Shown piece after piece: positions 1-62,527 of a stretch of 64,000 nt of DNA. The notes below the pieces were generated by a model. The model had not been told where the DNA came from, made no database searches, and saw nothing but the letters and a program-made list of their open reading frames with translations. A program made the position numbers and the translations under genes. Each line of letters begins with the position of its first letter. Positions within the stretch are counted from its first letter, which is position 1. Origin of the DNA: Tetradesmus obliquus (lineage: Eukaryota; Chlorophyta; Chlorophyceae; Sphaeropleales; Scenedesmaceae); assembly GCA_030272155.1 (NCBI GenBank), contig CP126202.1:1984001-2048000 (forward strand), written 5' to 3'.

Positions 1-1269
1 GCATGACCGTCTCCCCAAGCTGCTGCTGCTGGTTGGCGCAGACGCAGTACCATATGACCACCTCGTGCAACCTTTCAATATCAAGCATCAACATAAAACA
101 TAAACAGCAGACGCATGCGCCACACCCACCTGCCACTGGCACGCCTGCAGCAGCTGGATGCGCATGACTGTCTCCCCAAGCGGCTGCTGCTGGTTGGCAC
201 AGAAGCAGCCCGCCTCAAACACCTCAATGGCCACGCGGCGCTCCGGAAGAGCAAGCTTGAGTGCAAGCAGGCCGTCTTCGCTGACCATGTTGAGGGCATA
301 TGGGATGCCAAGCGACGCCAGGCAGCGTGCGACGTCCTGCATGCACAACAATTCACCATGGATTTGATTCAGTGGGGCTATTTAGCAACCTTGAATGCCT
401 CAATGGCCACACAGCGCTCCGGAATGAACAGCAAGCTTGAGTGCAAGCAGGCCGCCTTCAGACCCCATGTTGAAGGCTCATTGAATACCTAGGGAAGCCA
501 AGCAGCGCGCAACGTCCTGCAGGTGCAGTAGGGTACATAACATGCTTTGTTGTTGAGTTTTGGTTGCTGTTGGTGTTCAGTTATGCTTGTCGCGCCAACA
601 GGCCATAATAAAACCAGCAAGTAAAGGACTGATGTGCGGATGTTGGTGATTGTGCGTTAGTTGGTGATTCTGGCAGCAGGCACTCCTCGCTGACCATCAT
701 GGTCAGCCTAGTAGGCTGCCTTGAAGGCCTGCTGGGCTGTCAAAAGCTTCTTATTAATTCAGCCCTTTGTGACCATCACCTGTATGAGGTCTGAGGGTGG
801 TGCCGCCACTGCTGCCTCCTGCACTGGCCTGCCAGGCTCCCGTCATCAAACCGAGCTCTGCCACAAACTTAGTTCAACGTTATGTTACAAGTACCTGTGT
901 GAGGTCGACGGTTGGAGGTGCCACTGCTGCCCCCTGTGCAGCCTTGAATGCCGGCCAAGCTGCTGAACCAGCCCAGTAACCAAAACAACAGCATAAATAA
1001 CACATGTGTAACACTCACCTGAATGAGGTCTGAGGGTGGTGCTGCCACTGCTGCCTCCTGAGCTGCCTTGAAGGCCTGCCAAGCTGTCAAGATGAGCTGC
1101 GGGGGAATGGTGAACAAGCTGGCTCCATCAGGGTTCTTGCAGATCATCAAATACGCCTGGCAGCAGCAGCAGCAGGGAAAGAATGGACGGGAGGAGGAAT
1201 CTAAGGATGATTTGTAGGGCATGGTGAACAGGCTGGCTCCGTTGAAGTTCTTGCAGATCATCAGGTACA

Positions 1270-1312
<43 letters not shown>

Positions 1313-1322
1313 CAGCAGCCGC

Positions 1323-1355
<33 letters not shown>

Positions 1356-1438
1356 GAGAACAGCGGCGTGAGGATGGAGTGTGGGGGATCGTGAACAAGC
1401 TGGCTCCATCAGGGTTCTTGCAGATCATCAGGTGCGCC

Positions 1439-1471
<33 letters not shown>

Positions 1472-3549
1472 GGCTGTCAGGTGGGACCACATCAACAGCA
1501 ACATCCATGTACACTGCCAAAAAGCGACTGCCGCACCTACCTGGTACAGCTGTGACAGCGCGCCATGCCGTGATGCAAGCACGTGATGCGGTGATGCACA
1601 AGCAATGCGACGCAGAGCCCACAGCACCACAGCTGTGACCAACATCATATAGTGATATTCAACCTGCTCAAGCACTAAGGTTCAAGTACATCAGCATCTA
1701 CCTGGTACAGCTGTGACAATGCGCCAGGAGTCATCCCGCCCGCCACCGCCTGCTGCGCCAGCAACCCCATCGCGCCGTTCCACACTCCACGACTAAAACC
1801 TTCAGTTCAACAACGTACTAAAGTGCTGCTGCCAGCGCCAAGTGGTCAGCGTCCATGCTGCTGACCTTGGGCTGCTGTTTACAGGAAACAAATTGTTGTA
1901 ATGCTTATTCCCACTTGTGAAAATGGTGTTGACCTACCTGGTACAGCTGTGACAGCGCGCCAGGCGTCATCCCGCCCGCCACCGCCGGCTGCGCCAGCAA
2001 CCCCATCGCGCCGTTCCACAGCTCAGGACTCAGATCCTTGAACAAACAGAAGCACCACAGCGCACTCGCAAGCGCCGAAGGATCTGCCTCCGCTACCTGC
2101 GGCTGCAGCTGCTGCCGCAGCTGCTGCAGCAGCGCTTTCGGCGGGGCGTAAGCCAGCGTGGCGTAGCTCTGCAGCAGCGAGGTGAGCGCAGCCGCCGGCA
2201 GCCGGTGGGCTGGTGGCGTGCTGCTGCCGGCGGCTGCGGCGGCCGAGGCTTGCGAAAGCTTGCTGGCAATGTGCTGTGCGGCGCTGTGAAGCAGGGTGAC
2301 GCCGGGGTGGAACTTCAGGCGCGCGTACACCTGCAGCAGAGCAGCATGTGACAATTATCCGGATGAATGGCTTTGATTTAGTGTTGTATTTGAGTTTCAA
2401 TGCCTGCAGCGTTGCTGCTTGTGTTGTGCGGCGCCATGTAGGAGGGTGACGCCAGGGTGGAACTTCAGGCACGCATACACCTGCAGTGCAGCAGCAGCTG
2501 ACATTTTATGTGAATGAATGGCCTGCATCAATTGTTGTGTTTGGTTCGATGGTTGCGAGAGCTTGCTGGCGATGTGCTGTGCGGCGCTGTGTAGGAGGGT
2601 CACGCCCGGGTCTTGAATTTGAGGCGCGCATACACCTGCAGAGCAGTGCACGACATCCGAGGCGTTGCAACATCAGGATCGACATGCGAGTCGCATGCCT
2701 GATATGCTGCAGCTTGGCGTTGTGACAGCTATTTGCACAAGTCTGTCATTCCCTCTCAACGCAACCAATCCCACTCTGCACCGCACCAGTTCCACCAGTG
2801 CAGCAGGGCCTGAGCTGCCCATGTTGGCCACCGCCAGCTCAGCAGCAGCCGCCAGCACCACTCACAAGCCGTTACCAGCAATCCTAAAAGCTGCAGCAAA
2901 ACACACCTGCAGCAGCTCTGCCAACTTCAAGCAAAGCGCTGCATTGCACCCATGCCCACTATAGATCACACCCAACCCACCGAAGGTAGTACACAAACAA
3001 AGAAACCGCACACCTGCAGCAGCTCTACCAGAGCCGCAGGACTTGAGCTGCCCATATTCGCCACCGCCAGCTCAGCAGCAGCCGCCAGCAGCCCACCAGG
3101 CGGGCCCACCCATGGTCATGTACAAAAACACACAATACCATGATCTCCAGCTCGACCACCTAAAAGCAGCACACTGTGCGCTGCTTCATAGTCAGGAACA
3201 CCACAGACAACCTCCAGCAAGCTTCACAAATGGAGAAAGTGACACCCACCTGCAGCAGCTCCACCAAAGCAGCAGGGCCTGAGCTGCCCATATTCGCCAC
3301 CGCCAGCTCAGCAGCAGCCGCCAGCAGCCCGCCAGGCGGGCCCACCCCCAGCCCGATCAGCCCACCAAGCAGCGGGCCCAGGCTGGCCGGCGGCAGGCTG
3401 CCAATGCAGGCCTCTGCCTGAGTCAGCATTGCTTGCAGCATTTGGGGTGGCGGGGGGTGCCCGAATTGTGCGTAGGCCCAGGTTAGCTGGTGCAGCTGCT
3501 CGCCAGTGAAGCTGGGCAGGGCTTCGGATAGCATCTGAGCAGCAGCAGC

Positions 3550-3583
<34 letters not shown>

Positions 3584-3921
3584 GCAAGGGGTGTGTCAGC
3601 ATAGCTTGGAGCATTTGGGGAGGTGGGGGGTGCCCAAACTGTCCATGCCCAGGTTCGCTGGTGCAGCTGCTCGCCAGTGAAGGTGGGCAGGGCTTCGGCT
3701 AGCACCTGACAGCAGCAGCAGCAGCAGCAGCAGAAGCAGCAGTGGGTGAGTCAGCATGACCCCAGGCTGGCCGGCGGCACGCTGCCAATGCAGGCCTCTG
3801 CCTGAGTCAGCATTGCTTGCAGCATTTGGTGTGGTGGGGCGTGCCCGAATTGTGCGTAGGCCCAGGTGAGCTGGTGCAGCTGCTCGCCAGTGAAGGAGGG
3901 GAGGGCTTCGGCCAGCACCTG

Positions 3922-3957
<36 letters not shown>

Positions 3958-6265
3958 AGGGGTGTGTCAGCATTGCTTGCAGCATCTGGGGTGGTGGCGG
4001 ATGCCCGAATTGTGCGTAGGCCCAGATGAGCTGGTGCAGCTGCTCGCCAATGAAGGAGGAAAGGGAATCCGCGAGCACCTGATGGCAGCAGCAGCAGCAG
4101 CAGCATTAGGTTGAGTCAGCATGGCCCTAGGCTGGCTGGCGGCAGGCTGCCAATGCATGCCTCTGCCTGAGTCAGCATAGCTTGCAGCATCTGGGGTGGT
4201 GGGGGGTGCCCGAACTGGGCGTATGCCCAGGTTAGCTGGTGCAGCTGCTCGCCAGTGAAGGTGGGGAGGGCTTCGGCTAGCACCTGTTCACAGCAGCAGC
4301 AGCAGCAGCAGCAGCAGGAACAGCAGCAAGCTGGTCATGTGGCAACTAGAAAACCTGATCCAGCACGATTGCAAGCGGCCGAGACGTACACAGCTGCATG
4401 TGTATGCTGATTTTCAAAGTAAACAGGCGAATTGATACAGATACGGACTCTGGGCAAACAATCAAGGTGCATGCATGTGTCGTTGCAGCCCACCTGCAGC
4501 ACGGCGTCCAGCAGCGCTGCTGGCGGGCGGAACTCCATGCGCGCAAACGCCCACATCGCCTGGCAGGCATGCCTGCAGCGGCAGCAGCAGCGGCAGCGGC
4601 AGCAGCAACATGTTTGCAAATACCATTGGCCTGAGTAACTTTGCTAGGTTTGCACTCATAAGCATGATCTTGAGCGCAGCAGCAGCACCAGTGTGGCCAG
4701 CGCCCCCAGGCTGATGACTCACAACAATGATAGCATTAACCATAGTGACAACATCAAGCATGATGAGATTGCATGTGGTTCTGACAGTAACAAAACAGCC
4801 CCACTTTGCCAAAACAGGCCCAGGTTGCGGCCCAGTGCCCCTGCAGCAGCGTCTAGCAGCGGCGTCCCAGGCACATAACCCAGAGTCGCCAGCACAGCAA
4901 ACTTGATAACACATATGAGACCACTTCAAACATGATAACACAAGAACGTGTAAAACAGGGGTTACCTTGGTGAAAACAGCCCCAAGTTGCGGCCCAGCGC
5001 CCCTGCAGCAGCCTCCAGCAGTGGTGTGCCAGGCACATAGCCCAGCGTGGCCAGTGCCCCTAGGCTGCTGGCCAGCTGCTCCTTCCAATATGACAGCATG
5101 CCAGCAACCATAGAAAACATTACAAACGTTATTAAACCCATGAATTAATAATCACCTTGGCGAAAGAGGCCCAGATTGCGGCCCAGAGCGCCTGCAGCGG
5201 CTTCAAGCAGTGGTGTCCCTGGCACATAACCAAGGGTTGCCAGTGCCCCCAGGCTGCTGGCCAGCTGCTATTTCAACTGGACAGCATGCCAGCAACAATA
5301 AAAACAATGCAAACGGTCTAAAATCGATGAACTAATACTCACCTGGGCGAAAACAGGCCCAGATTGCGGCCCAGAGCGCCAGCAGCGGCTTCCAGCAGTG
5401 GTGTGCCAGGCACATAGCCAACAGTGGCTAGCGCTCCCAGGCTGCTGGCCAGCTGCTCCTTACAAAATGACAGCATGCCAGCCACGGCAATAACAATGCA
5501 ATACGGAAAACATGACAGTACTTGAATATACCTTGGCGAAAAGAGGCCCAGGTTGCGGCCTAGTGCCCCTGCAGCGGCTTCAAGCAGCGGTGTGCCAGGC
5601 ACATAGCCCAGCGTTGCCAGTGCCCCCAGGCTGCTGGCCAGCTGCTCAGCAGTGAAGCCAGGGAGTTTGGCCAGAATTTGGGCAGCCAAGGCATCCAGGA
5701 AGCCTACATCAGGCACCACCTGCAGCTGCAGTAGATCACAAGCAGGACAGCAGCACATGGACTATGTCAGGACGGCAGCAACGCCGCTTGGCTAGGATCT
5801 GCGCTAATAAGGCATCCAGGAAGCCCACATCAGGCACCACCTGCGCTGCAGTAGATCACAAGCAGGACAGCAGGGCGGGGAAATACATGTGTGTCAGATG
5901 TCATGGCCACTGCAGCCAGTGCCCCCAGGCTGGCCAGCTGCTCAGCAGGGCATTGCCCAGGAAACCCACATCCGGCACCACCTGCAGCTGCAGTCGCAAA
6001 AATCACTAACATGCCAGGCAGCAACATACAGGAGGTGTCAAGTGTGGCTGCTCTGCTGTCACTCCAACGGATGCCATCTGAGCGGCCAGCGCATCTTAAA
6101 AGCCGACATCAGGCGCCGTCCGCAGCTACTTTCAAACAACGAGGCAGGTTTCATTTGCGCGAAACACCGGCGAGCACAATACAGCAAGCCACACGCATCT
6201 CACCTGTGCCAGGGCCCTCACCACCTCTGCCAGCTGCTTGGGCCCCATGCTGCCTGCCCGTGTTC
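1..6265 (-). repeat. Tandem exon-edge fragments of the RAP-domain gene
   Basis: Partial exon copies fill the introns. Exon 8: a 3'-side copy at 1-50 and a 5'-side copy at ~390-525. Exon 7: 3'-side copies ~783-838 and ~899-967, 5'-side copies ~1206-1275 and ~1388-1442. Exon 6: 3'-side ~1536-1572 and ~1690-1795, 5'-side ~2410-2485 and ~2553-2642. Exon 5: 3'-side ~2795-2915 and ~3008-3105, 5'-side ~3597-3712, ~3775-3922, ~3966-4083 and ~4128-4287. Exon 3: 3'-side ~4800-4880, ~4973-5085, ~5153-5270 and ~5340-5460, 5'-side near 5790-5870, 5950-5990 and 6085-6125. Exon 2: a 3'-side copy at ~6208-6265. Fragments keep recognisable donors or acceptors. Boundaries are by eye. Confidence 0.85.
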
Positions 6266-6704: not shown

Positions 6705-6748
<44 letters not shown>

Positions 6749-25863: not shown

Positions 25864-25895
<32 letters not shown>

Positions 25896-44188: not shown

Positions 44189-44224
<36 letters not shown>

Positions 44225-45190: not shown

Positions 45191-45225
<35 letters not shown>

Positions 45226-45999: not shown

Positions 46000-46041
<42 letters not shown>

Positions 46042-46246: not shown

Positions 46247-46290
<44 letters not shown>

Positions 46291-46523: not shown

Positions 46524-46562
<39 letters not shown>

Positions 46563-46782
46563 TGCTGCCGCAGGGCAAGCAGTCGTTGAAGCAGCTAGAC
46601 AACCAGCTGGCGCGGCTGGCAGTGCAGCTGCTTGGCCCTGGTCCAACTGCTGCTGCCGCTGCTGCTGCCGCTGCTGCTGCTGCTGCTGTTGCTGCTGCCA
46701 CAGGGCAAGCAGTCGTTCAAGCAGCTGGACAACCAGCTGGCACGGCTGGCAGTGAAGCTGCTGGTCCTGATTGAACTGCTGC

Positions 46783-46816
<34 letters not shown>

Positions 46817-46982
46817 GCAGGCCAAGCAGTCGTTCAAGCAGCTGGACAACCAGCTGGCACGGCTGGCAGTGAAGCTGCCGCAGGGTGACCTGGCAGGTCA
46901 GGCGCGGGTACTGGCAGCAGTACAAGGCGGCAGGGACCCCAACAAGACGCAGGAGCAGCAGGAAGAGGAGGAGCTGCTGTAG
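42971..46982 (+). CDS. Gamma-soluble NSF attachment protein (gamma-SNAP)
   Basis: Exons 42971-43132, 43348-43549, 43931-44094, 45043-45183, 45424-45543 and 46821-46982 agree in phase and give 316 residues, close to animal gamma-SNAP (312). TPR-like helical pairs run throughout: DWEAAAPLFEKAALLYK, SEKARAAYERAAQSQEKIG, AAKHLETCGAISKDLGQYEQ, ALYGEALEHYESDGKEAQA and SDAVSMCMRFGEACDKA. The order and spacing follow gamma-SNAP rather than alpha-SNAP. The end is acidic (EEEELL) where alpha-SNAP has its conserved C-terminal tail. SNAPs recruit NSF to SNARE complexes and help disassemble them after membrane fusion in the cytosol. Introns contain many fragments of the neighbouring exon edges. Confidence 0.92.
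43217..45042 (+). repeat. Exon-edge fragments of gamma-SNAP exons 2, 3 and 4
   Basis: Acceptor-side copies: exon 2 near 43217-43250, exon 3 at ~43800-43890, exon 4 at ~44938-45010. Each lies upstream of the complete exon and has a CAG acceptor. Donor-side copies of exon 3 (ESDGKEAQAT.VFRQA.ALLVK block plus CAG|GTGGG) lie at ~44279-44361 and ~44540-44625, downstream of the complete exon. Each is followed by a similar intron start with (CAG)n. Confidence 0.88.
45604..46820 (+). repeat. Nine-unit array of gamma-SNAP last-exon starts, plus exon 5 fragment
   Basis: A donor-side copy of exon 5 lies at ~45604-45675. Then GGCAAGCAGTCGTTCAAGCA and about 57 bases of the last exon recur with starts near 45811, 45919, 46050, 46167, 46294, 46441, 46571, 46703 and finally the complete exon at 46821. 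Spacing is 108-148 bases. Each unit ends in TTGGCCCTGGTCCAACTG or GGTCCTGATTGAACTG followed by a (CTG)n tract and a CCGCAG or CCACAG acceptor for the next unit. Confidence 0.92.
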
Positions 46983-47905: not shown

Positions 47906-49314
47906 ATGCTTTGCCTGTCATCTACACAGAGTTGTCAGGGCCCATTGCAAAGGCCGGCTAGGCACTCGCCCTCCCAAGCAGCAGCAGCAGCACAGCCTTC
48001 CGGGCACCTTACGTTGCGGCCATCAAAGTAGGTACTGCTTAATAGCACTGCTTGTGTTTCTCGTAAACTGTTTCACATGATGGAACCGCCATGCAGGCAT
48101 GTGTCAGCGGCAAGGCTGCATCACCAGCAGCAGCAGCAGTGGACGACACCAGCAGCAGCAGCAGCAGCAGGTCCCAGGCGACAACTTGTCAAGGTGCGTT
48201 CGTGATTAAAACAGCAATCTGAGAACCGTCACGGGCGGCTGGTGTGCCACCCATGTAGCGGGCATTGCTGCCTGCTCAAGTGGTGCAACACAGGGCTCTC
48301 ATGCCAAAGGGCCCAAGCGAGGCAAACACCCTGCACATGTGTCAACATTGCGCTACTGCCACCACGCGCACCGTCACAAGCAGCAACAGCAGCAGCAGCA
48401 GCCTGAGCATGTTCATCTGGCTTGTATCAACAACCATATGCAGGATGGCATTGGCTGTGCGTGCCATGCATCAGACAAGACAGGTTTCAGCTGCTGCAAG
48501 CCTAGCAGCTTAGGCCAGCCTGTGCTTGCGCACAGCAATTGCCTACGTACGATCCTGCTGAAAGACATCGTTTCCTGAATTTTGAGTAAGCTGCTCACTC
48601 ATACGTATGGGTTGTGGCACCACGCAGAGCCGAGCCGGGCCCGTGGATGTGATGCCCACATGGACGCTGGACCAGATCGCAGGACTGGCCTTTGGGGTGA
48701 GCAGCAGCAGCGGCAGCAGCGGCTCAGCGAATCAGCGGTTTGATGCTAGAGCGCATGGAATAGTGGTGGCTGCGGATGTTTGCGTCAGTAGCTAGCATGC
48801 ACGCCGCCTGTGCTGCAGTGCAACATGTAGCCAACCTGTGTGTCATGCACGAGCCTCCACTCACAAGACTCCTGTGACAGGATGCCAGGGGGCCTTGCAG
48901 CACAGGAAAAACCAGGTGGTATCAGCCCTACTCACACCTGCATGCCCATATGTTGGTTTGTGCACTGTCAGGCATAACTCAGTTACTCAAGGCACCTTTC
49001 GGCAGCACCGCTTAAGCAGGCGGGCGTAAGACCCCTGCTGAATAACATTGGCTGAATCGACTGGGTCAAAATTTCCAACACTGACGGTGCTGCACCTCTG
49101 CTGCTGCTGCTGGTGCCGCTCATTCTGCTGCTGCTGCTGCTGCATTCAACAGGTGCTGATGGTGGTGTGTTACTTTGGTGCGCAGCAGGTGGACGTGGCA
49201 GTAGCAAAGCAGCAGCGGCGGCAGCTGGGGCTGTGTGAGGAGTGCGGCGGGCTGTATAATGCTGAGAGCTGCCAGCAAGACAAGTGCCCGATGAAAGCTA
49301 AGGCCAGCAGGTAG
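47906..49314 (+). CDS. Small four-cysteine membrane protein, probably organelle-targeted
   Basis: Exons 47906-48027, 48097-48193, 48628-48696 and 49153-49314 agree in phase and give 149 residues. The N-terminus (MLCLSSTQSCQGPLQRPARH) is rich in Ser, Ala and Arg with no acidic residues, as in algal transit peptides. A single hydrophobic segment (LDQIAGLAFGVLMVVCYFGA) follows near residue 85-105. The C-terminal 35 residues carry C-X2-C-X8-C-X4-C (CEECGGLY...SC....CPMK), a likely zinc or redox motif, and a basic end. I think it is a small conserved protein of the green lineage but cannot name it. Three further copies of the C-terminal block follow downstream. Confidence 0.7.
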
Positions 49315-49454
49315 CCGCTACCTGCTGATGGCATCAGTAGTACCAGGAACAGGGCACGTTGATATCATCTACAGCACTTGTGCGCCGCCAAATGGTTGGG
49401 CTGATGGCCATTTGCTGAGCGGTTGGTGACCATGACGATGACAGTGAGGTCGAA

Positions 49455-49996
49455 GCAGCAGCGGCGGCAGCTGGGGCTGTGTGAGGAGTGCGGCGGGCTG
49501 TACAGCGCTGACAGCTGCAGCCAGGACAAGTGCCCCATGAAAGCTAAGGCCAGCAGGTAGCATACAGCAGTCCCCCCACAGTGTCTGGCGATTGCAGCAG
49601 CAAACATTACAGAGCAATGAGGCGTGCCGTTGCTGGCATGTTTGTAACGGGATGATGAGCGCGCAATATGAGGAAGGCAGCTAGGCCTGTGAGAGGAGTG
49701 TGGCGAGCTGTACAACGCTGCCAGCTGCAGCCAGGACAAGTGCCCCATGAAAGCTAAGGCCAGCAGGTAGCATACAGCAGCACTACCAGGAACAACACAC
49801 ATTGATATTATCTACAGCACTTGTGCGCCGCTCAATGGTTGGGCTGATGATGGCTATTTGCTGAGCGACTGGTGACAATGATGATGGCACAGGAACAGGA
49901 ATGCAGCTGGGGCTGTGTGAGGAGTGTGGCGGGCTGTACAACGTTGACAGCTGCCAGCAAGACAAGTGCCCCATGAAAGCTAAGGCCAGCAGGTAG
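49455..49996 (+). repeat. Three stop-side fragments of the four-cysteine protein gene
   Basis: Copies of the last ~100 coding bases lie at ~49455-49560, ~49685-49770 and ~49905-49996. Each reads LGLCEECG.LY...SC.QDKCP and MKAKASR then TAG, with all four Cys and their spacing kept. The flanking 3' sequence (AGCATACAGCAGT, GTGTCTGGCGATTGCAGCAG) is repeated as well. Confidence 0.92.
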
Positions 49997-50129
49997 CATA
50001 CAGCAGTTCCGGTCCCCCATAGTGTCTGGCGATTGCAGCAGCAAACATTGCAGTGAGGCGTGGCGTCGCTGGCATGTTAACATAGCTGCCAGTGGATGAT
50101 GTTTGTTACATGATGGCTGGTGTAACCTG

Positions 50130-50293: not shown

Positions 50294-51560
50294 ATTTCGA
50301 ATCTACCAACTAATCAAAATCAAAATGTGGATGTTACAGTAGAAAATTGGTACAACGTGCAAGCAGGTCATTTCAAGTATAATGCAGCATAATGAGTACT
50401 CACATGGCTAGAAGTGGTCCCCCAAAAGGCCACCATGGCTGCTGAACCTCGTGTTGCAAGCATGTGCAGCTCCTGCTTCTGCTCCTATGTGTCTTTTGCA
50501 TTACCTACAGTGCGGCCGCCGCACTTGGCATTGGCATTGGCAACTTGCCATTGTGAGGCTCGTACTACAAGCATCTGTTCCTTTATGAACTCAGTGGTCC
50601 AGCCTTACTATTGGCAATAGCACGATCAGCCCCATGCGCTACTGCAGCGGCAGCAAGAATACACAGCAGTGGCAGTGTCTTCCGGCAGCGCCTTCTCAGC
50701 AACCGTGTAGAACCAAGTCCCAGGGCTCCAATCAGCAGCTGCACGGCAGTACACGGCTACATAGACGCCTGCCGGCAGCAAGCGATGCCATGCCAGCTGG
50801 CACTGCAGTGGCAAGCAGACAAATTTGACTTTAAAGTCAAGCACCTCAGGTAACGTAGTGCTCCAAGACCATATGCATGCCAGCAAAAAACCGTAGCCAC
50901 CCCCCATGCGTCATGGAGAAAAAATCAACATGCATGCTGTCTCAATCGTAGGAAAGCGTGCAAGGTTCAGCTGTGCACGCATGCAACCCTCAGAGGTGCA
51001 TTTATGCAACACATGCGAAGCCGATGCTCCATTCTTCACATCATGTGCAGATGCTCTCAATGACACCGGGCCGGAAAACATGCCGCCGCCAGTCCAGACA
51101 CAGCATAGCCAGTCAAACAGGCACTCCATGTGCAATGCTGACTGGACCTGCATGCAACTACCCTCTCCTTCTTATAGTAGCGTCAAGGAAACATGCAGGG
51201 CTGCGTGTACTGTAGAAGTGCCGTGAACAGTAGGTGCTCTGTGAACAGGCAACCTCAATGCAAGCTCTCAATGCATACCATCAGACTCTGCAGCACTGCC
51301 CTTTGCAGCAAAACCCCATCATCTGATCTCCGGTTGCCACAACAATACACCATGCATTGACGAAGTCGAACCGACATGTCAGGTCTCGCCTTCACACGAA
51401 ACAGACGTGCCGCAACATCAGCTTCCATTCTAAGGCGCCCCCTCGCTCTCTCAAGCGCCAGCCAGCTTGATCAGCGCAGCTCCAGCAGTGCCCATCAGCG
51501 CTGCACACCTAAAAACCCAACGACAGCGCCCCTGACGCATGCTCATGAGGGCGTGACAAC
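50294..51560. other. Region with no firm gene
   Basis: On the minus strand about 50626-50850 reads as an open stretch (for example LPAGVYVAVYCRAAADWSPG) preceded by a CTGAG-type acceptor. It could be an exon or a gene remnant, but I find neither partner exons nor a known domain. Nothing else is supported. Confidence 0.3.
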
Positions 51561-51760
51561 GTCCACCAGCTTCCAATCTGCTTCAGGGCCCATCAAGACG
51601 GTGTCACAACGTCCACCAGCTTCCAATCTGCTTCAGGGCCCATCAAGACGGTGTCACAACGTCCACCAGCTTCCAATCTGCTTCAGGGCCCATCAAGACG
51701 GTGTCACCACGTCCACCAGCTTCCAATCTGCTTCAGGCCCCATCACATCGTCCCAACTCG
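51561..51760 (-). repeat. 50-bp tandem repeat, stop-side copies of the SixA-like gene
   Basis: GTCCACCAGCTTCCAATCTG starts at 51561, 51611, 51661 and 51711, an exact 50-base period and nearly identical copies. The unit equals the last coding block of the gene (GPEADWKLVDVVTPS and stop), whose own copy is at ~51839-51890. All lie downstream of the real stop. Confidence 0.95.
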
Positions 51761-51838
51761 GCCCAGCCACCACAAACAGCGCCGCACATTCAGCACCTAA
51801 ACACCTAAAACCGTCCAAACCAGCTCAAAATCATCCTA

Positions 51839-53440
51839 TCAAGATGGCGTCACCACGTCCACCAGCTTCCAATCTGCTTCAGGCCCCATCACATCATCCC
51901 AGCTGGGCCCAGCCACCTCAAACAGCGCCGCACTGGCAGTGCCCAGCCGCACCGCTTGCTTTGCAAAGGCACTGGCTGCCTCCTCCCAGCCCTTGTTGTG
52001 CCCCACACACATCACGCAGAAATGCGCTGCATCAACAGCCACGCTGCGGATGGTTTCTTCCAGGTGGTGCTTCGTCTGGCCGTCGAGGGCGGCTACGGTG
52101 TACAGGCTGCCAAGAAAGTGCGCGTCAACCTGCAGAAAGTAGCGCAGACAGCAACACGGTTTCATTTGGGGGCAAATGTGGTTCATGAAGGTACGATGTA
52201 CAGGCTGCTCAGCAAGTGCGCATCCACCTGCAGGTTGCAAAGCAATAGGATCAAATGAATAGGTGATGATTGGGTTTGGATGTAGGACAATCCAGTGAAG
52301 GTGGTGCTTTGTCTGGCCGTCGAGGGCGGCTACTGTGTACAGGCTGCCCAAGAAGTGCGCGTCCACCTGCAAAAAGTAACAGGGTTGGAAAAGTAACAGG
52401 GTTGGAACAAAGAGGAAAAACACATAGCTTATGGTGATTAGAGTGTGCAGGCTGCCAAGGAAATGCGCGTCCACCTGCAGGTTGCTTAGGGTGCTGCCAC
52501 AGCAAAACAACCCTGTTTGCGGCGGCTGCCGCAATGATTGACACGCCAACACAACGAGGCTCCCTTGCCTGTCAGAAAGCCTGGCCTGTCATCTTCCCAT
52601 GCAATATGGCTGCACCCTCACCAAGCCTGGCAGCTGACACACATGAACAGCACGCTCAACCAATGTGCACCCACCTGGCTGAGCTCTGCTGCTGCCTCAG
52701 CCATGGTGTCCATGGGCGCTCAAACAGGCATACGCATTGAGCCCCGTGGCACAGCAGACCGGCTCGCTAGTGCCGTTACACCCACCTGGCTCAGCTCTGC
52801 TGCTGCCGCCGCCATTGGTGTCCGTGCCGTAATGTATGCTGCGCCCCTGCCAGGAACCACGCCTAACTACTCTCTGCACCCCAAAACAAACATAAATACT
52901 CACCTGGCTGAGCTCTGATGCTGCCTCCGCCATGGTGTCCAGCGTCTGCTTGGTGCGCTTGGAGTTGCTGGCAATGATCAGGTCAGGCACCCAGCCGAGC
53001 TCACACAGCCGCCTCGCAATGTTGCTGGCTTCGCGCTTGCCTTGCAGGGAGATAGGCCTGTCATAGTCTCGCAGTTTGGTGGAGGTCTCGCTGTCTGCGT
53101 GGCGCAGCAGAATCATGCGGCGCACGCGGCTGCTGCCGCCGCCTGCTGCTGAAGGGCCGGCAGGGCCTGCTGCTGCTGTGGAGGGGCCGCCAGCTGCTGC
53201 TGCTGCTGCCGGCGCTAGTGCTTGCAGGACAAGCGATGCAGTGCGTTTGCTGGCGCGTGGGAGCTGCCGCTGCTGCTGTTGCTGATTACGCTGCTGGATG
53301 GCGGTTAGGCCTAGCTGTGATTGCTGCACAGCATGCTGCTGTGTAGGCTGCACTGCAAGCCGCGCAACTGCTGTGCTGCTGCTACTGCTGCGGCATGAGA
53401 CCCTGCTGCTGGAGCTGCTGCAGGGCCGCCTTAGCTGCAT
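51839..53440 (-). CDS. SixA-like phosphohistidine phosphatase, probably organellar
   Basis: Two exons, 53440-52904 and 52129-51839, in phase 0, give 275 residues. Residues 1-105 are rich in Ser, Arg, Gln and Ala and lack acidic residues, consistent with a transit peptide. The catalytic part starts MILLRHADSE, with the phospho-accepting His at 114 after Arg113 (the RHG motif as RHA, as in bacterial SixA). GKREASNIARRL and SNSKRTKQT follow, and the second catalytic His is at 223 in CVGHNKGWEE. Bacterial SixA removes phosphate from His on signalling and PTS proteins; the algal substrate is unknown. The start was taken at the first ATG; there is no earlier one in the frame. Confidence 0.88.
52190..52850 (-). 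repeat. Exon-edge fragments inside the SixA-like gene intron
   Basis: Acceptor-side copies of exon 2 (VDAHFLGSLYTV block after CTGCAG) lie at ~52192-52232, ~52300-52370 and ~52445-52480, upstream of the complete exon at 52129. Donor-side copies of exon 1 (AEAAAELSQ-type block with CAG|GTGGG) lie at ~52671-52715 and ~52783-52830, downstream of exon 1. The intron thus has donor fragments at its 5' end and acceptor fragments at its 3' end. Confidence 0.9.
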
Positions 53441-54132: not shown

Positions 54133-56791
54133 ATGATGCTGCGCTTGGCCTTATGTGGATTGCAGAAATCCTATGCGGGAAGCAGCATTGTGGCAGCCTG
54201 GCATGCCAGGACAGCAGCGCTACCAGCAGCAGCATCAGTCAGCATTTGCAGGGAGTCTCAGTGGCAGCATCATAGCAGCGAGCTGCTGCTGCCTGCAGGC
54301 ATCCCTTGCCTATCAGCAGCAGCAGCAGCGACAGCACGCGCTTACCAGCGCAGCTCAGCTGCTACGCTTACAGGGCGGCACAAGGGAAGCAGCGGCAGTA
54401 GCACCAGCAGCGGTGGCAGCGGCTCCTGCAGCAAAGGCAGCAGCGGAAGCAGTGGCAGCGGCAGCAGCAGTGGCAGCGGCAGCAGTCGAAACGGCAACTG
54501 TGGCAGCGGCAGCGGTCGCAAAAGTAGCAGCAGCAGCAGCAGCAGCAACCAGAGCTCTGGCGCTGGCAACCAGGCACAGAGCTCTAGTCAAGGCAGCAGC
54601 AGCAGCAGCACTGCCAGCGCCAGCAGCCATAGCAGTAGCAACAGCAATAGCAGCAGCAGTAGCAACAGTAATGCAGGCAGTGACAGGCGCAGCAGTAGCT
54701 TCAGCAGCAGATTTGGGGCCTGGACAGCAGCAGCGCCGCAACAGCAGCAGCAGCAGCAGCCTGGCGCCAGTTTTCCTGGGCAGTACAGGATTGTACAATA
54801 CAACAAAGGCAACCAGACGACGCTGCTGGTAACGGGTGACTCTCCAGGTGAGATGCCAGCACAGTTTGAACTGTGCATTACCACTGTGAACTTCTTTCTC
54901 CTTGTGCAATCATTGCTGGTGTGCAGCTCTCCTGCAAGTGCAAGGTCTTCCTCGTAGGGAATGTTTTAGTCAATGGCATCACCAGCACATGTGTAGCCGG
55001 TAATAATTTGTTGCTGCACTCCAGGCTTGAAATCATTGTATGAGTCACACAAACAAAACGTGTAGCTGTTAGTGACGGGTGACTCACCAGGTGAGCTGCC
55101 AGCACAGTTTGAACTGTGCAAAGCATTGCGTACCTTCTTCTTGTGCAATGAGATGGTACTGCCAGCACCGTTCGAACCGTGTACAGCACTGTCAACATTT
55201 TCCCCTGGCGTTATGAGGTGGTGTGCTACTTTCCTGCAAGTGCAAAGTCTTCCTGCAATGAAACTGTTATAGTCAACGGCACCGCCAGCACAGGTTTGAC
55301 CGGTAATCACATGTTGCTGTGCTCCAGACTTGAAACCAGTGTATGAGTCACGCGAAAACATTACGTGTAGATGCTATCCATACACGACATAGATCTGTAG
55401 GACCTTGCTGCCATCAACCTATCTGCTTGCCGTTTGCGCCCTGGTTCTTCAGGGATGGAGGTTTCAGGGATGTTCAGGGATGTTTCATCCACGATGCAGC
55501 GCTGCCCTTCACTCTGCTTACCGTGCCACTGGTTTCTCCTGCCCTGCCCTCTGCATTGCCTCTTATGCTGGTTCTTTTCACTTTTTCTGCTGTCACCAGA
55601 TGGTTACCAGCTGCAGCGCACGAAAGGGGCAGCAAACTCGGCCGAGTTTGTGGCAAAACGGCCCTCAGCAGGCGACAGCAGCAGCAGCGTGCAGCAGCAG
55701 CCGCCGCCGCAGTCGCTGCTGCTGTCGTTGCTGCAGCGGCCGGTGCGGCGGGTGCGCAAGACGCTGCAGGCCACGTTCCTGCCTGCAGGGTATCCTACGA
55801 GCGTAGGTGGGTTGCAGCGCTCTTATTTGGGTCGAAAATTAGTTTAGGTCTGTGTTTACAGTGCGCAATGCACCACTAGCAGCAACAGCGTCAGCAGCAG
55901 CGCGTGCTCAACTTGTTTTTTTGCACTTTTTATTCTTGAGTGTTTGTGGACTGCCGCTGCTGTATTGTTAGTTTGTTTTCTTTGTTTGTACTGGCTACCC
56001 CCGCCGACACTTGCACTGTGCCGCGCATCAAATGATGTACACGACCTGAACTGCCTTTTCTTCCGGATCTGCTGCTGCATCCTGCAGGTTCCAACTACCT
56101 GTCTTACACCCTCTGGCAGGCCGTGACCAACTTTGCCACCACCGCCAACGGCGTGCTAGCCTCAACCTTCCTGCTCTACTCGGTGGGCCTAGGGGCTGGG
56201 GCCATCCCCACAGCCGGGGCGCTGAACTGGGTGCTCAAGGATGGCCTGGGGCAGCTGGGCACGCTGCTGTTTGGCAAGGCCATTGCGCACAACTTTGACA
56301 TCCACAGCAAGACGTGGTACTTCATGAGCTTCCTGCTGCTCAGCACGGCAACAGGCGGGTACTTGTCACTTTTGTTGTCACAATCATGATTTAATGATGT
56401 TACATTTGTCATATTAAAGACGCTGGGCCAGCTGGGCACGCTGCTGTTTGGCAAGGCCATTGCGCACAACTTTGACATCCACAGCAAGACGTGGTACTTC
56501 ATGAGCTCCCTGCTGCTGAGCACGGCCACCGGTGCGTGATTGTCACTTTTCTTGTTACAATGTTGTTACATTTACCGCCACCATCCTCCTTCCAGCTTCC
56601 TCGTTCTGGGCAGCACCGCCAACATACTGCTGCTGCTGACTGTCCTGCTGCTGCTGCTGCTGCTGCCACTGCTGCCGCAGGCCTGGAGTTTGCCACCATC
56701 CTGGCCCCCTCATCCTTCCTGTTCCTGGGCAGCACCGTCAACATGGTCAAGGGGCTTACTAACTACCTGCTGCTGCTGCTGCTGACGCCGC

Positions 56792-56824
<33 letters not shown>

Positions 56825-57651
56825 GTGCATTCCCATCCTCAGGCCTGGAGATCGCCACCATCCTGGCTCCGTCCAGCCTTTTGATCTTTGGCAGCACCAA
56901 CATACTGCTGCTGCTGACTTTCATGCTGCTGCTGACTTTCATGCTGCTGCTGCTGCTGCCACTGCTGCCGCAGGCCTGGAGATTGCCACCATTCTGGCTC
57001 CTTCCAGCTGCTTGATTCTCGGCAGCAGCCGACATACTGCTGCTACTAACTGTTCTGCTGCTGCTGCCACCGCCTCAATTTCACCATCAGGCTTGGAGAT
57101 CGCCACCATCCTGGCCCCCTCATCCTTCCTGATCCTGGGCAGCACCGCCAACATACTGCTGCTGCTGACTGTCCTGCTGCTGCTGCTGCTACTGCTGCTG
57201 CTGCTGCCCCTGGCATTCTCATCTGCAGGCCTGGAGATTGCCACCATCCTGGCCCCGTCATCCTTCCTGATCCTGGGCAGCACCGCCAACATGGTCAAGG
57301 GGCTCAGCTGGATGGCTGGCGGCAGCACGCGCAGCGTGTTCAACTTGAGCTTCGTGAGAGACAACAACATTGCAGGTGCGTGTGAATGGCTGTTGTATCA
57401 ACATTGTGACAGCTGTCCATCTCTGTATGCGCACTATATCTAGCTGCACCGGCTAAGCACAGTCCAGTACCTTTCCTTTACCATCAAGAACACCAGCCAG
57501 TACATCTTTGGCAGCCTCTTGGGACCACTGACTCTGCTGCTGCTGCTGCTGCTGTGGATGTTTTGCCTGTCCACAATTGTCTGAAGACATCACCGCCAAG
57601 AACACCAGCCAGTACATATTTGTCAGCCTCTTTGGCACCACTGACTCTGGC

Positions 57652-57713
<62 letters not shown>

Positions 57714-58028
57714 CCTTCCACAAATCCCCCAGACATCACCGCCAAGAACACCAGCCAGTACATCTTCGCCAGCCTCTTTGGCACCACTGACTCTGCCGCT
57801 GCTGCTGCTGCTGCTGCTGCTGTTGTTGTTTTCCCTGTCCACGAATGCTTGCACACATCACCGCCCAAAACACCAGCCAGTACACCTTTGCCAGCCTCTT
57901 TTGCACCACTGACTCTGCCGCCCCCGCTGCTGCTGCTGCTGCTGCTGCCACTCCCAGACATCACCGCCAAGAACACCAGCCAGTACACCTTTGCCAGCCT
58001 CTTTTGCACCACTGACTCTGCCGCCCCC

Positions 58029-58059
<31 letters not shown>

Positions 58060-61000
58060 CTCCCAGACATCACCGCCAAGAACACCAGCCAGTACATCTT
58101 TGCCAGCCTCTTCGGCACCACTGCCGGCGTGTCCATCTGCGCCTACATTGGGCAGTCAGCCCCCTTGGCCCTGCTGTGCTTCAGTGGGCTGGCGTGGACT
58201 GCCATCTACAGCGCGTACAGGACAGTCAAAGCTATCCCGCTGCCGACCCTCAACTCGACGCGCCTGCAGCTGCTTGCGGCAAGGTGAGGGTTATGATCAG
58301 GTTTTTATGAGGGTTTATGACGGGACTGGGGTTTTGGGTGGGGTGCTGGCCCTGCTGTGCTTCAGTGGGCTGGCATGGACATCAATCTACAGCGCGTACA
58401 TGACAGTGAAAGCTATCCCGCTGCCGACGCTGAACTCCACACGCCTGCAGCTGCTGGAGGCGAGGTGAGAGCCAGAGACTCATCTCCTTGGAGACTGAGT
58501 TGCTGTGATGGCATGGTCTGTATTGCCCTGGCTGACTGCTGATTAGCAGAAAACATGCTTGAGGCATACCAGCCTCTGGGTGCTGGGATGCCAGAGCTGT
58601 ACGTAGACCGCCTTCTTGACACCTAAACCCCAACTAGTCAGCGCTGAACCCTGCTTCATGTTCTCCTCGCTTCAGGTATTTCAAGTGCATCCGCACCAGC
58701 AGCACGGGCCTGGTGGGGTTCAGCACCTTGATGAGCCACCAGCAACCCCCAAACCCAAACCCATTCATTCCTTACTAAACCCTGTCGACTCTTCTCTTAT
58801 TTTTCAAGTACCTCAAGTGCATCCGCACCAGCAGCACGGGCCTCGTGGGGTTCAGCAGTGGCAGCTACATGAGCTACCAGCAGCCCTAAAGCATCAAAGC
58901 CACTACTCAAACCGTAAAGGATGCTGCACCTTCTTATCGCTCCAGGTGCCTCAAGTGCATTCGTACCAGCAGCACGGGCTTGGTAGGGTTCAGCAGTGGC
59001 AGCTACATGAGCTAACAGCAACCAAGGACCCCAAACCCCATTGCTCACACTTTAAAACACGTTACTGCTTCTTCTTTCTTTTCCTCAGGTACCTCAAGTG
59101 CATTCGCACCAGCAGCACAGGCCTCGTAGGGTTCAGCAGTGGCAGCTACATGAGCTACCAGCAGCCGCCCGGCTACGTGTCATACCAGCAAGAGTACGAG
59201 GTCCCAGAAGATGAGGACGACACCTGCGAGCTGGAGCTGCCCAGCCCGCTGGACCTGGCACACCAGGTGAGGTTTCAAGATGTAGGGTTTTATTGGATAT
59301 GGTTTTAGAGTTTTGGATCAGGGTGTAGGGTTTAGGTAGGTTGAGCCACCAGCACGACAGAATGAGGTGCCTGAGAATGAGGATGACACCTGTGAGCTGG
59401 AGCTGCCTAGCCCACTGGACCTCGCGCACCAGGTGGGGTTTAAAGGTGTATATGGATGTAACATTATGGTTTAGGAGCAGGACGTGGGGTCCCGGTGCGT
59501 TGAGCCACTGGAAGGACTGTGCTAGGTCCAGCAGGGTTGAGGGTCAGGGTGTATGGGTCGAGGTGGCTTGAGCACCAGCAAGACAGAATGAAGTCCCAGA
59601 AGATGCGGATGACACCTGTGAGCTGGAGCTGCCCAGCTCACTGGGCCTGGCACACCAGGTGGGGTTTAGTGTCCGGGTGTCGGGCTTAGGTGCTTGTGCA
59701 GGGGTGCTTGCGCAGGGGTGCAGCTCGAATTGCTGCGCTAGACAGAGGTGCAGGGAGCACACAACTGTGCCTGCGTGATCAGCCCACTTGGAGCGCCAGG
59801 AGCCTTCGGGCAGGGGGGCTTCTGGTCTAGCATTGCTTGTAAGTGCGCAGTTGTGCATATGCCATGCCTAAAACTTCATTTTACACCCTTATGCAGGGAG
59901 GGCCACTGTGTGGGGTGCCAGCAGGATCACATGACCTGCCTAATCACCCCGCATGCCACCACCCTGGGGAGAGTTGAGTTGGGTACAGTTCAACAAAATC
60001 GACATCAAGAATACTAGCAGCCCCTTTTCGAAGCCTTGATGAATGAACCCTGATTGAACCCTTACTTGCTGAACCCTGTGCTGACGTGGCTGCAAAACCC
60101 TTGTGGCATTGCAGGACCCTCCGCTGCCGTGGGTGACTGCTGACAGGCGCATCCTCAACCCAGCCATACACGTCGGCACACAACTGGACAAGCTGGTGCA
60201 GGGTGAGTGGCTGCCCTGTGTCATGTCCTGTTACATGTCCTGTTACATGCCATGTTACATGCATTTTCAACCTCAGAATAACAGTGTCATGTGTTCATGT
60301 GTTTATGTGTTGAATCTCCCACACTGCATATCGGCACACAGCTGGACAAGCTGGTGCAGGGTGAGTGGCTGCTCCATTACATGTCTTGTTACATGCCATG
60401 TTACATGCCATGTTACATGCCTGTTATATGCGTAAATCAGATTCAGAAAGATAGTGCTGCTTGTGTGATTCATATGTGAGTTCTGGCAGGTTCATTTCAA
60501 TGCGTATTTGTGTGCTTCTTGTGTTTCCTTGCTCCTGCTTCATCGTGGTACAGTCCGGACCTGGTGCTACGGCAGCTTGCAGAGAAGTGACAACACTGCT
60601 CAAACCTTCATCTGCTGCTGCTGCTGCTGCTGCTGCCGCTGCTTCTTTTCTCGCACACAGGCCAGCCGGCGCTGCTGGTGGTGCTGCTGGCCACGTTCCG
60701 CTTCCAGCGCTACCTGCTGGTGCCAGAGGCCAGTGCCATCCACATGGTGCTGCATGCTGAAGCAGCACCGCGCGACATGGTGCAGGCCTACCTGCAGGTG
60801 AGTAAGCTGAACCCAGGGTCTAGTGCCATAGGGTTGGGACGCGCAGGGTTCAGCACCACATGGTATTTCATCTCAAGATTTAGTGCCACATGGAATAGTA
60901 CTACGGGGTTCAACGCTACCTGCCGGTGCCAGAGGCCAGTGCCATCCACATGGTGCTGCACGCTGAAGCAGCGCCCCGGGACATGGTGCAGGCATACCTG

Positions 61001-62527
61001 CAGGTGAGCAGCTGGTCCCGGGGTTTACTGTCACAGGGTTGTGTTCCACATGGTTGAGTGCTGTATGGTTAGTGGCACAAGGTTGAGCGCCCACAGGGTT
61101 CAGCGCTACCTGCCGGTGCCAGAGGCCAGTGCCATCCACATGGTGCTGCACGCTGAAGCGGCCCCGCGTGACATGGTGCAGGCATACCTGCAGGTGAGGG
61201 ACCGACCCGAGGTTGTGGTACCACAGGGTTTGATGCCACAGGATTTACTGCCGCAGGGCATTAGAGCCACATCGTTGGTTGTCACAGGGGTTGAGCGCCA
61301 CCTGCTGGTGCCCAAAGCTATTGCCATCCACATGGTGCTGCATGCGGAGGCAGCCCCGCGTGACATGGTGCAGGCCTACCTGCAGGTGAGCAGCTGAACT
61401 CAGGTCTTAGCACCACAGGGTTGAGTTTCACAGGGTTTGGTGCCACCGGGTTTAGTGCCACAGAGATAAGTTTAACAGGGTTGAGTGTCACAGGGTTCAG
61501 CGCTACCTGCTGGTGCTCAAAGCTAGTGCCATCCACATGGTGCTGCATGCAGAGGCAGCGCCCCGGGGCATGGTGCAGGCCTACCTGCAGGTGAGCTGCC
61601 GTACTTACTGTTTGGGGGGCACATGATGTAAGGCCGCATGGTTCAGCACCGCAGGGTTTAGCACCACATAATTTAGGGCCACAGGGTTTAGTGATGTGGC
61701 ACAGGGTTCATTGCTGTGTGGTTCATCGCAACCTGCTGGTGCCCGAGGCCAGTGCCATCCACATGGTGCTGCATGCTGAAGCAGCCCCCAGGGACATGGT
61801 GCAGGCCTACCTGCAGGTGAGCAACCTACCCGAGGTTGTGGGACCACAGGGTTTGATGCCACAGGAGTTAGTGCCGCAGGGCATTAGAGCCACATCGTTG
61901 GTTGTCACAGGGTTGAGCGTTACCTGCTGGTGCCCAAAGCTATTGCCATCCACATGGTGCTGCACGCGGAGGCAGCGCCAAGGGACATGGTGCAGGCATA
62001 CCTGCAGGTGAGCAGCTGAATGCTTCTGCTGCTGCTGCACAGGTGTGCTTCCTGCGCAAGTCCATCAAGGCCGGCGTGCATATGTCACCTGTTTCAACCT
62101 GTTGTGCCACTGCAACCACCCCTGCCCCGCTTCATTGCTCCTGCTGCTGCTGCTGCTGCTGTAGGCGTGCATCCTGCGCAAGTGCATCAAGGCGGGCGTG
62201 CAGCTGAGCCACGACAACGTGCACGAGCTGCGCATCATCCTGCACGACACGCTGCTGGCTGCAGAGGCGCTGACACCACCCTTCATGCGGGCCCTGGCGC
62301 GCCAGGTGCGACGTTGTGTCGGGGTGGAGCATTTTGGGAATGTTGGTTCGGATTACTGCAACACTTAGCATGTGTATGTGGAGTGACTGTGAGGCAACAC
62401 TATGCCTGGTCTGCTTGCTCATGCGCTGCTGCTGCTGCTGCTGATGCTGATGCTGCTGCTGCTGCTGCAGGGCTGGCAGACAGAGAAGATTGTGGTGGAG
62501 GCACACAGGAGGCGCGCACGCTGGTGA
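54133..62527 (+). CDS. RUS family protein (DUF647, root UV-B sensitive)
   Basis: Exons 54133-54847, 55600-55806, 56088-56354, 57229-57375, 58067-58283, 59089-59266, 60115-60202, 60661-60797, 62165-62305 and 62471-62527 agree in phase and give 717 residues. Residues ~1-238 start MMLRLALCGLQKSY, a possible organellar targeting segment, then a long Ser/Gly-rich stretch. The DUF647 core is clear: TLQATFLPAGYPTSVG, SNYLSYTLWQAV, GAGAIPTAGALNWVLKDGLG, LEIATILAPSSFLILGSTAN, NNIADITAKNTSQYIFASLF, and YRTVKAIPLPTLN. Several hydrophobic helices suggest a membrane protein. Plant RUS1/RUS2 act in early seedling light and vitamin B6-linked signalling; some members are chloroplast proteins. Exon 3 has a GC donor (ACAG|GCGGGT) in this model. 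The tail is basic. Confidence 0.88.
54825..55125 (+). repeat. Donor-side fragment of RUS exon 1
   Basis: The exon 1 end and intron start (GTGACTCTCCAGGTGAGATG, then CCAGCACAGTTTGAACTGTG) recur at ~55068-55120 with few changes, including the donor. Confidence 0.85.
56419..56535 (+). repeat. Donor-side fragment of RUS exon 3
   Basis: A ~110-base copy of the exon 3 end (GQLGTLLFGKAIAHNFDIHS block) follows the complete exon. This copy has a canonical donor (ACCG|GTGCGT) where the complete exon has GC. Confidence 0.9.
56577..57228 (+). repeat. Acceptor-side fragments of RUS exon 4
   Basis: Five partial copies of the exon 4 start (LEIATILAPSSFLILGSTAN block) begin near 56577, 56681, 56843, 56974 and 57090, before the complete exon at 57229. 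Most are followed by (CTG)n and preceded by CCGCAG, CCTCAG or ATCAG acceptors. Confidence 0.9.
57478..58468 (+). repeat. Fragments of both edges of RUS exon 5
   Basis: Five acceptor-side copies (ITAKNTSQYIF.SLFGTT block, each followed by (CTG)n) start near 57478, 57588, 57734, 57857 and 57957, upstream of the complete exon at 58067. One donor-side copy (LLCFSGLAWTSIYSAYMTVK block with AG|GTGAG) lies at ~58344-58468, downstream. Confidence 0.92.
58676..59665 (+). repeat. Fragments of both edges of RUS exon 6
   Basis: Three acceptor-side copies (YLKCIRTSSTGLVGFSSGSY block) start near 58677, 58809 and 58946, upstream of the complete exon at 59089; two hit in-frame stops soon after. Two donor-side copies (DDTCELELPSPLDLAHQ block with CAG|GTGGGG) end near 59432 and 59660, downstream. 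Confidence 0.92.
60320..60362 (+). repeat. Donor-side fragment of RUS exon 7
   Basis: The exon 7 end (GTQLDKLVQ block and GTGAGTGG donor) recurs about 120 bases downstream of the complete exon. Confidence 0.85.
60900..62010 (+). repeat. Six donor-side fragments of RUS exon 8
   Basis: Copies of the exon 8 end (VPEASAIHMVLHAEAAPRDM block, then QAYLQ and CTGCAG|GTGAG) end near 61001, 61193, 61386, 61592, 61816 and 62008, all downstream of the complete exon that ends at 60797. The intron-derived parts between them repeat CACAGGGTTTAGTGCCACAG-like text. Copies are 85-100% alike by eye. Confidence 0.93.
62041..62085 (+). repeat. Acceptor-side fragment of RUS exon 9
   Basis: CACAGGTGTGCTTCCTGCGC followed by AAGTCCATCAAGGCCGGCGT copies the exon 9 start, ahead of the complete exon at 62165. 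Confidence 0.85.

Follow-up and report, generated by a model that had tools for sequence, protein, structure and literature searches.

Tandem copies of exon-intron junctions in the introns of Tetradesmus obliquus: skipped in annotated proteins, with coding quality retained in many fragments

Why should introns be filled with partial copies of the exons beside them, and are such copies inert? This question is raised by a stretch of 64,000 nucleotides (nt) of the green alga Tetradesmus obliquus (contig CP126202.1 of assembly GCA_030272155.1; G000:C12:1984001-2048000), which is the window of this report and to which positions refer unless another contig is named (k, thousands of nt). The whole genome searched comprised 104.66 megabases in 17 contigs. 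A sequence-only reading had reported about 40 arrays of partial exons in the window. Comparison of the window with itself (blastn, low complexity masked) bore this out, yielding 120 repeat pairs that fall into approximately 45 clusters by our own grouping of the list. We found that 115 of these pairs lay less than 5 kilobases (kb) apart, 112 of them direct and 3 inverted, the latter serving as a control of equal composition. The tags OEZ86_004630 to OEZ86_004639 are consistent with the ten genes counted in that reading, and OEZ86_004630 (P0195), OEZ86_004634 (P0196) and OEZ86_004639 (P0001) all map to the window.

The layout can be followed in the RUS/DUF647 gene (Pfam PF04884), to which P0001 was fitted by spliced alignment with 0 gaps and 487 of 502 residues matched. 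Its 5' exon, forced in the fit, lies further upstream, outside the coordinates of the model exons. The gene, its complete exons and its fragments are as follows.

55600-62524, plus strand: RUS/DUF647 gene OEZ86_004639
55600-55806, plus strand: complete exon 1 of the model
56088-56354, plus strand: complete exon 2
56423-56561, plus strand: donor-side fragment after exon 56088-56354
56576-57228, plus strand: 4 acceptor-side fragments before exon 57229-57375
57229-57375, plus strand: complete exon 3
57485-58066, plus strand: 4 acceptor-side fragments before exon 58067-58283
58067-58283, plus strand: complete exon 4
58347-58469, plus strand: 1 donor-side fragment after exon 58067-58283
58651-59088, plus strand: 3 acceptor-side fragments before exon 59089-59266
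59089-59266, plus strand: complete exon 5
59348-59668, plus strand: 2 donor-side fragments after exon 59089-59266
60115-60202, plus strand: complete exon 6
60331-60420, plus strand: 1 donor-side fragment after exon 60115-60202
60661-60797, plus strand: complete exon 7
60911-62020, plus strand: 6 donor-side fragments after exon 60661-60797, unit about 200 nt
62021-62080, plus strand: 1 acceptor-side fragment before exon 62165-62305
62165-62305, plus strand: complete exon 8
62471-62524, plus strand: complete exon 9

In the RUS protein each exon is represented once and the fragments are skipped; the RUS proteins of four other algae also contain each exon once. Differences among the six fragments at 60911-62020 are mostly synonymous. 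The real donor of exon 56088-56354, at 56355, is GC (GCGGGT), which the annotated protein requires, and the donor of the skipped fragment is GT (GTGCGT).

Gene models were made with a purpose-written spliced aligner that fitted database proteins to the DNA, every fit being without gaps. Besides RUS, the residues matched were 450 of 479 for OPR, 708 of 709 for LRR, 536 of 536 for CCT-delta, 561 of 561 for CCT-eta and 547 of 551 for CCT-epsilon; the gamma-SNAP model was assembled manually and matches PDB 2ifu. These seven modelled genes comprise four in the window (RUS, OPR, LRR and gamma-SNAP) and three CCT genes elsewhere. A second set added five CCT loci for which the models were approximate, one of them without repeats, and there model exons shorter than 60 nt were dropped before counting. 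Counting also excluded the first exons of RUS, OPR and gamma-SNAP, which were forced or uncertain, and took two predicted exons, of 21 nt in CCT-delta and 45 nt in CCT-epsilon, as fragments. The gene-model counts leave out the arrays of the BRCT region (31-39k), the array near 15.6k and the cpn60 loci L045, L048 and L051.

The seven genes contained 104 fragments (44 donor-side, 58 acceptor-side and 2 stop-side), and fragments accompanied 23 of 58 donors and 28 of 60 acceptors. None of the 104 ran the wrong way at the junction level: no donor part lay upstream and no acceptor part downstream. The statement that fragments always lie in the harmless direction is overstated; it is geometry and not a bias, because tandem duplication of a junction-spanning segment must leave its partial copy on the intron side. 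Five repeat pairs were classed as interior, two of them alignments beginning 10-11 nt inside an exon, and one pair lay within a single exon. In addition, 28 of 138 pairs touched no real exon (14 fragment-fragment, 7 outside the modelled LRR gene and 7 remaining). The second set showed one apparent wrong-way case, at L043, where an exon has two near-complete copies and the model may have taken the wrong one. Neighbouring copies were 80 to 280 nt apart in 99 of 100 cases, with a median of 138 nt. Direct local repeats, their orientation and these spacings support the proposed origin by tandem duplication of segments spanning a junction. GT was kept in 39 of 44 donor-side and AG in 52 of 58 acceptor-side fragments, counts that are favoured by the placing of fragments at their best match.

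The annotated proteins of RUS, OPR, LRR and CCT-eta rely on the first donor and the last acceptor, the condition under which the sequence-only reading considered the copies neutral, and skip the fragments; the exceptions are three predicted in-frame mini-exons of 21, 81 and 45 nt in T. obliquus CCT models. In CCT-delta (L039) the 21-nt mini-exon occurs in both the OEZ85 and OEZ86 models and the 81-nt one in OEZ86 only, and the 45-nt mini-exon belongs to the database model of CCT-epsilon (L047). These mini-exons may be either annotation errors or new exons. No new intron was found in the RUS, OPR, LRR and CCT-eta proteins; the mini-exons of CCT-delta and CCT-epsilon would qualify as such if transcribed.

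A neutral fragment may change at all sites, whereas its parent exon changes only at silent sites, so the ratio of zero-fold to four-fold divergence should not fall below about 0.5, a floor that we assumed with composition effects set apart. The pooled test drew on 181 fragments in 93 arrays from 12 loci, of which 11 had fragments; 6 of 187 fragments had been dropped for a junction context matching at fewer than 17 of 26 bases. The pooled ratio was 0.170 (0.129-0.226) at a four-fold difference of 0.228; it was 0.256 (0.187-0.353) when matched for G+C content (GC-matched) and 0.138 (0.095-0.200) for transversions only. Premature stops numbered 6, compared with 34.0 (standard deviation 5.9) expected under neutral simulation. 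Donor-side fragments gave 0.122 (0.083-0.184), GC-matched 0.163 (0.111-0.245), and 0.264 (0.159-0.475) at G/C sites outside CpG; their coding constraint is firm. Coding constraint on acceptor-side fragments is likely but not proven. The second set alone gave 0.209 (0.146-0.329) on the donor side and 0.185 (0.113-0.324) on the acceptor side.

Neutrality also implies that the exonic and intronic parts of fragment pairs should diverge alike. In five genes, identity between fragments over the 40 exonic nt beside the junction was 0.90 on the donor side and 0.91 on the acceptor side, compared with 0.64 and 0.79 over the 40 intronic nt and 0.58 for unrelated junctions; donor-side identity falls at about +6. 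The ratio of non-synonymous to synonymous change (dN/dS) in these genes was 0.151 between parent and fragment and 0.238 between fragments. Mismatches were distributed over the three codon positions as 104:91:380. A model-free test found that mismatches followed a 3-base rhythm more closely than expected in 13 of the 14 sources that had usable blocks, and this rhythm was strong in the OPR arrays at 4.8-5.6k. The view of the sequence-only reading that the copies are neutral decoys is not supported by these results; on the acceptor side a neutral reading stays conceivable once sites are matched for composition.

These observations led us to a tentative reading, to which we give somewhat less than an even chance: junctions are duplicated and exchanged unequally, and the skipped fragments are kept near coding quality by trading sequence with functional exon ends. 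Segments across a splice junction or a stop codon would have been tandemly duplicated, probably mostly in the T. obliquus lineage, and unequal crossing-over that breaks within the exonic part would have enlarged the arrays. Exon definition, that is, pairing across the exon, would by itself select the first donor and the last acceptor. Within an intron donors precede acceptors, so that no pseudo-exon running from acceptor to donor arises. In the weakest step of the proposal, fragments would trade sequence with functional exon ends, both in the same array and in diverged alleles, and so become spare exon ends. Young donor-side pairs are similar on one side only: this is found in four pairs with near-identical flanking spacer, in RUS and CCT-delta, including the RUS pairs +588/+1210 and +396/+1019 of the array at 60911-62020. 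Such one-sided similarity is what either unequal crossing-over or a duplication breakpoint within the exonic piece would leave. Import of synonymous variants into young donor-side fragments was considered and rejected; the excess over spacer change was read as chimeras with one flank alike.

Several results weigh against this reading. When unequal crossing-over was simulated for fragments that were neutral in other respects, the ratios came to 0.64-1.07, compared with 0.1-0.3 observed, and therefore exchange in one lineage alone cannot account for the constraint. Trading sequence with functional alleles that have diverged would bring the ratio down and requires synonymous allele divergence near 0.25; our commitment to the exchange model is accordingly moderate, and both RNA use and neutrality with mutational bias stay live rivals. 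Under the strictest composition control, with only G/C sites outside CpG, the ratio rose to 0.379 (0.254-0.581) in the pooled set and 0.543 (0.313-0.966) on the acceptor side, where the GC-matched value was 0.412 (0.28-0.60). In the first set donor-side fragments were under stronger constraint than acceptor-side ones (p 8e-9); the second set showed no such difference (p 0.53), and the idea was given up. The 3-base rhythm was missing in L046 (0.46, 0.48 expected) and near nil in L049 (0.49, 0.48 expected). In five genes, non-synonymous changes did not clearly avoid conserved codons: conserved versus variable codons carried 16/426 versus 28/450 on the donor side (p 0.12) and 42/387 versus 38/387 on the acceptor side (p 0.72), as would be left by a neutral phase that was recent if nothing more. 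The gamma-SNAP gene alone gave a ratio of 0.351 (0.122-0.721), and its acceptor-side pairs are often similar on both flanks. Two further routes to the constraint were rejected. Repeated unselected passage of fragments through the functional position gives at least 0.64 in the simulation, and a load from rare conversion was argued against from the deep synonymous divergence (0.228 at four-fold sites), by reasoning and not by simulation.

If the fragments were inert tandem duplicates, their apparent constraint would come from mutable third positions combined with a frozen parent exon. The geometry and the skipping fit this explanation, as do the indifference of acceptor-side changes to codon conservation, the GC-matched acceptor-side ratio of the first set (0.469, 0.296-0.753) and the values under the strictest composition control. 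We nevertheless consider it unlikely, in view of the low donor-side ratios under every control, the low transversions-only ratio, the shortage of stops, the fall of donor-side identity from exonic to adjoining intronic sequence, and simulated neutral arrays that stay at or above 0.64. An assembly artefact, with haplotypes or polishing errors stacked as repeats, is very improbable: the differences between copies are structured by codon, which is not expected from random assembly errors, the copies have differing far edges and spacers that are hard to align, and in P0197, a metagenome open frame, the same OPR exon end is read a second time in diverged form.

Ordinary coding selection would act on the fragments if transcripts took an exon end from a fragment or included fragments as small exons. 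Such use at the RNA level could explain why the five fragments that follow exon 12 in the CCT-delta model carry 1 change at 282 zero-fold sites compared with 29 at 76 four-fold sites, and it is in line with the retained splice dinucleotides (as counted at best-match placement) and with the CCT database models that contain fragment mini-exons. On the other hand, no in-frame route was found among phases, AG|GT points or spacings, and the RUS, OPR, LRR and CCT-eta models skip the fragments; we regard it as rather improbable. As cassette exons, the 42 donor-side fragments showed no frame bias of their edge AGs (18, 21 and 18 by phase), and replacement phases showed no preference (19, 20 and 18). 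Hop splicing via AG|GT was rejected as a general route since a usable point was present in only a minority (11 of 42 donor-side and 11 of 56 acceptor-side fragments), and unit spacings did not clearly favour multiples of three (38, 34 and 28). Returning to duplication with exchange, a related idea is that the introns hold spare exon ends of working quality, skipped in the message and kept readable by selection or constant exchange, which might serve as repair templates or in an undescribed splicing route; this is conceivable, if on the unlikely side.

The arrays were said to occur in nearly every gene, which does not hold genome-wide. Local direct repeats were found at 10 of 11 CCT/cpn60 loci but in only 3 of 10 systematic 6-kb stretches of the genome; array density is patchy, and the window is denser than this sample. 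L040, a locus on contig C2, is a CCT gene without any local repeats, and array load may follow the gene or the region. A genome search with PF00225 gave 135 exon matches in approximately 35 loci by our own count, few of them with fragments discernible by eye, in a match table that is blind to short copies and says little on prevalence. For example, three acceptor-side copies lie upstream of a complete exon at C2:7430665-7431399 on the minus strand. When a 501-nt stretch of the window was compared with the whole genome in a search skipping simple repeats, 11 other matches of 30-71 nt were obtained.

Introns with arrays are longer, in line with the suggested expansion: the median length was 652 nt with arrays (n=36) and 296 nt without (n=21). 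The mean intron of T. obliquus UTEX393 is given as 462 bp, compared with 230-302 bp in four other green algae, in a published table (PMC5966456). The metagenome open frames P0036, P0048 and P0051 cross two RUS introns in about 33-86 codons (approximately 100-260 nt), and the same two introns measure 691-874 nt in T. obliquus; no fragment is visible across them in these three frames, each seen in a single reading frame. In P0197 the second, diverged OPR exon-end copy follows the complete one, and this exon is also copied in the window.

Several known systems resemble these arrays in part. Mutually exclusive tandem exons are local exon copies in introns that are under coding constraint, whereas the T. 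obliquus copies are partial, have one splice site each and follow no frame rule. Introner elements of green algae are dispersed families that add intron sequence to algal genes; unlike them, the copies here are local (115 of 120 window pairs within 5 kb), each array deriving from its own exon. Intragenic minisatellites have tandem units with signs of unequal exchange, and the arrays are like them in their head-to-tail units, median spacing of 138 nt (n=100) and one-sided similarity in four donor-side pairs, but each unit here is copied from a junction of the host gene and stays of coding quality. According to the available part of PMC4974935, a single tandem duplication across an intron-exon boundary created a new intron in the potato RdRp gene. 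As there, splice signals and part of an exon are copied together. The potato case, as far as that part describes it, was one event giving a new intron with its donor from the copied exon piece, whereas T. obliquus has many arrays of up to 8 copies that in most models lengthen existing introns and add none; the predicted 21-nt mini-exon of CCT-delta resembles the potato outcome. In the AGGT-duplication model of intron gain, also presented there (PMC4974935), a tandem exonic duplication supplies the splice signals, for which the text available requires AGGT within the copied exon; a usable AG|GT, lying at one aligned point in both copies, is present in only 22 of 98 donor- and acceptor-side fragments of T. 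obliquus. We found no description of arrays of exon-intron junction copies among the matches listed by a literature search whose scope did not extend to preprints and most subscription papers. The words intron, tandem and exon are absent from the available parts of PMC12571836 and PMC7590803, and the portion of PMC7955037 examined contained nothing relevant.

The gamma-SNAP gene, identified by the sequence of PDB 2ifu_A, carries fragments at donors, acceptors and stop codon.

43289-46982, plus strand: gamma-SNAP gene
near 42.97-43.1k, plus strand: earlier exon, uncertain
43289-43549, plus strand: complete exon
43798-43877, plus strand: acceptor-side fragment before exon 43931-44094
43931-44094, plus strand: complete exon
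44276-44644, plus strand: 2 donor-side fragments after exon 43931-44094
44923-44997, plus strand: acceptor-side fragment before exon 45043-45183
45043-45183, plus strand: complete exon
45252-45302, plus strand: donor-side fragment after exon 45043-45183
45424-45543, plus strand: complete exon
45604-45680, plus strand: donor-side fragment after exon 45424-45543
45766-46820, plus strand: 8 acceptor-side fragments before the last exon, unit about 121 nt, CTG-rich
46821-46979, plus strand: last complete exon, followed by the stop codon
47151-47449, plus strand: 2 stop-side fragments beyond the stop codon

Its eight-copy acceptor array shows little divergence. The OPR gene was placed by spliced alignment of P0195 (Pfam PF06743), the end of the protein lying beyond the window, and has 10 donor-side and 11 acceptor-side fragments; the LRR gene was placed by spliced alignment of P0196 and has Pfam LRR matches. 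The genes near 49k and 52k were located by tblastn with P0075, the former also from the sequence itself.

130-5725, minus strand: OPR/FAST-kinase-like gene OEZ86_004630
5532-5725, minus strand: OPR exon
4494-4572, minus strand: OPR exon
3250-3534, minus strand: OPR exon
1938-2330, minus strand: OPR exon
1019-1156, minus strand: OPR exon
130-336, minus strand: OPR exon
25787-28970, minus strand: LRR gene OEZ86_004634
28753-28970, minus strand: LRR exon
near 28409-28625, minus strand: 2 acceptor-side fragments of LRR
27652-28348, minus strand: LRR exon
near 27423-27530, minus strand: donor-side fragment of LRR
27071-27216, minus strand: LRR exon
25787-26852, minus strand: LRR exon
49150-49997, plus strand: gene near 49k, complete exon end to about 49315 and three downstream fragments (about 49450, 49675 and 49904)
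51543-52485, minus strand: gene near 52k, complete exon about 52129-51860

In the gene near 52k, one or more 3'-part fragments lie below the complete exon and one or more 5'-part fragments above it, and homologues of the genes near 20k, 49k and 52k give the same order of exon and fragments (tblastn). P0075 (Scenedesmus sp. PABB004, 620 aa) is apparently a fused model of relatives of three adjoining window genes (52k, gamma-SNAP and 49k), which suggests that these relatives are also adjacent in that alga. At 51556-51745, in the gene near 52k, a 50-nt unit is repeated 3.8 times with 98% match, young-looking among older repeats; at 31901-32012 a 38-nt unit is present in 2.9 copies with zero mismatches. 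About six 124-nt copies at 18937-19729 lack the 3-base mismatch rhythm, unlike many other arrays, and this array may be truly neutral. The stretch at 6.3-12k is nearly without arrays. Four Pfam scans gave no match above the curated cut-off, and a further one gave His_Phos_1, barely above it. A chimeric protein query was swamped by CCT proteins among the best 120 of 5712 matches.

Introns that grow from both ends by copying their own junctions bear on how introns lengthen. They also bear on the choice that the spliceosome makes when many sites are nearly perfect, and the 91 fragments with GT or AG kept in the seven genes are a natural test of exon versus intron definition. Should the coding quality of the skipped copies be borne out, intron DNA would have a use not yet known, or exon ends and introns would be exchanging sequence in an unusual way, and one or the other would call for an explanation.

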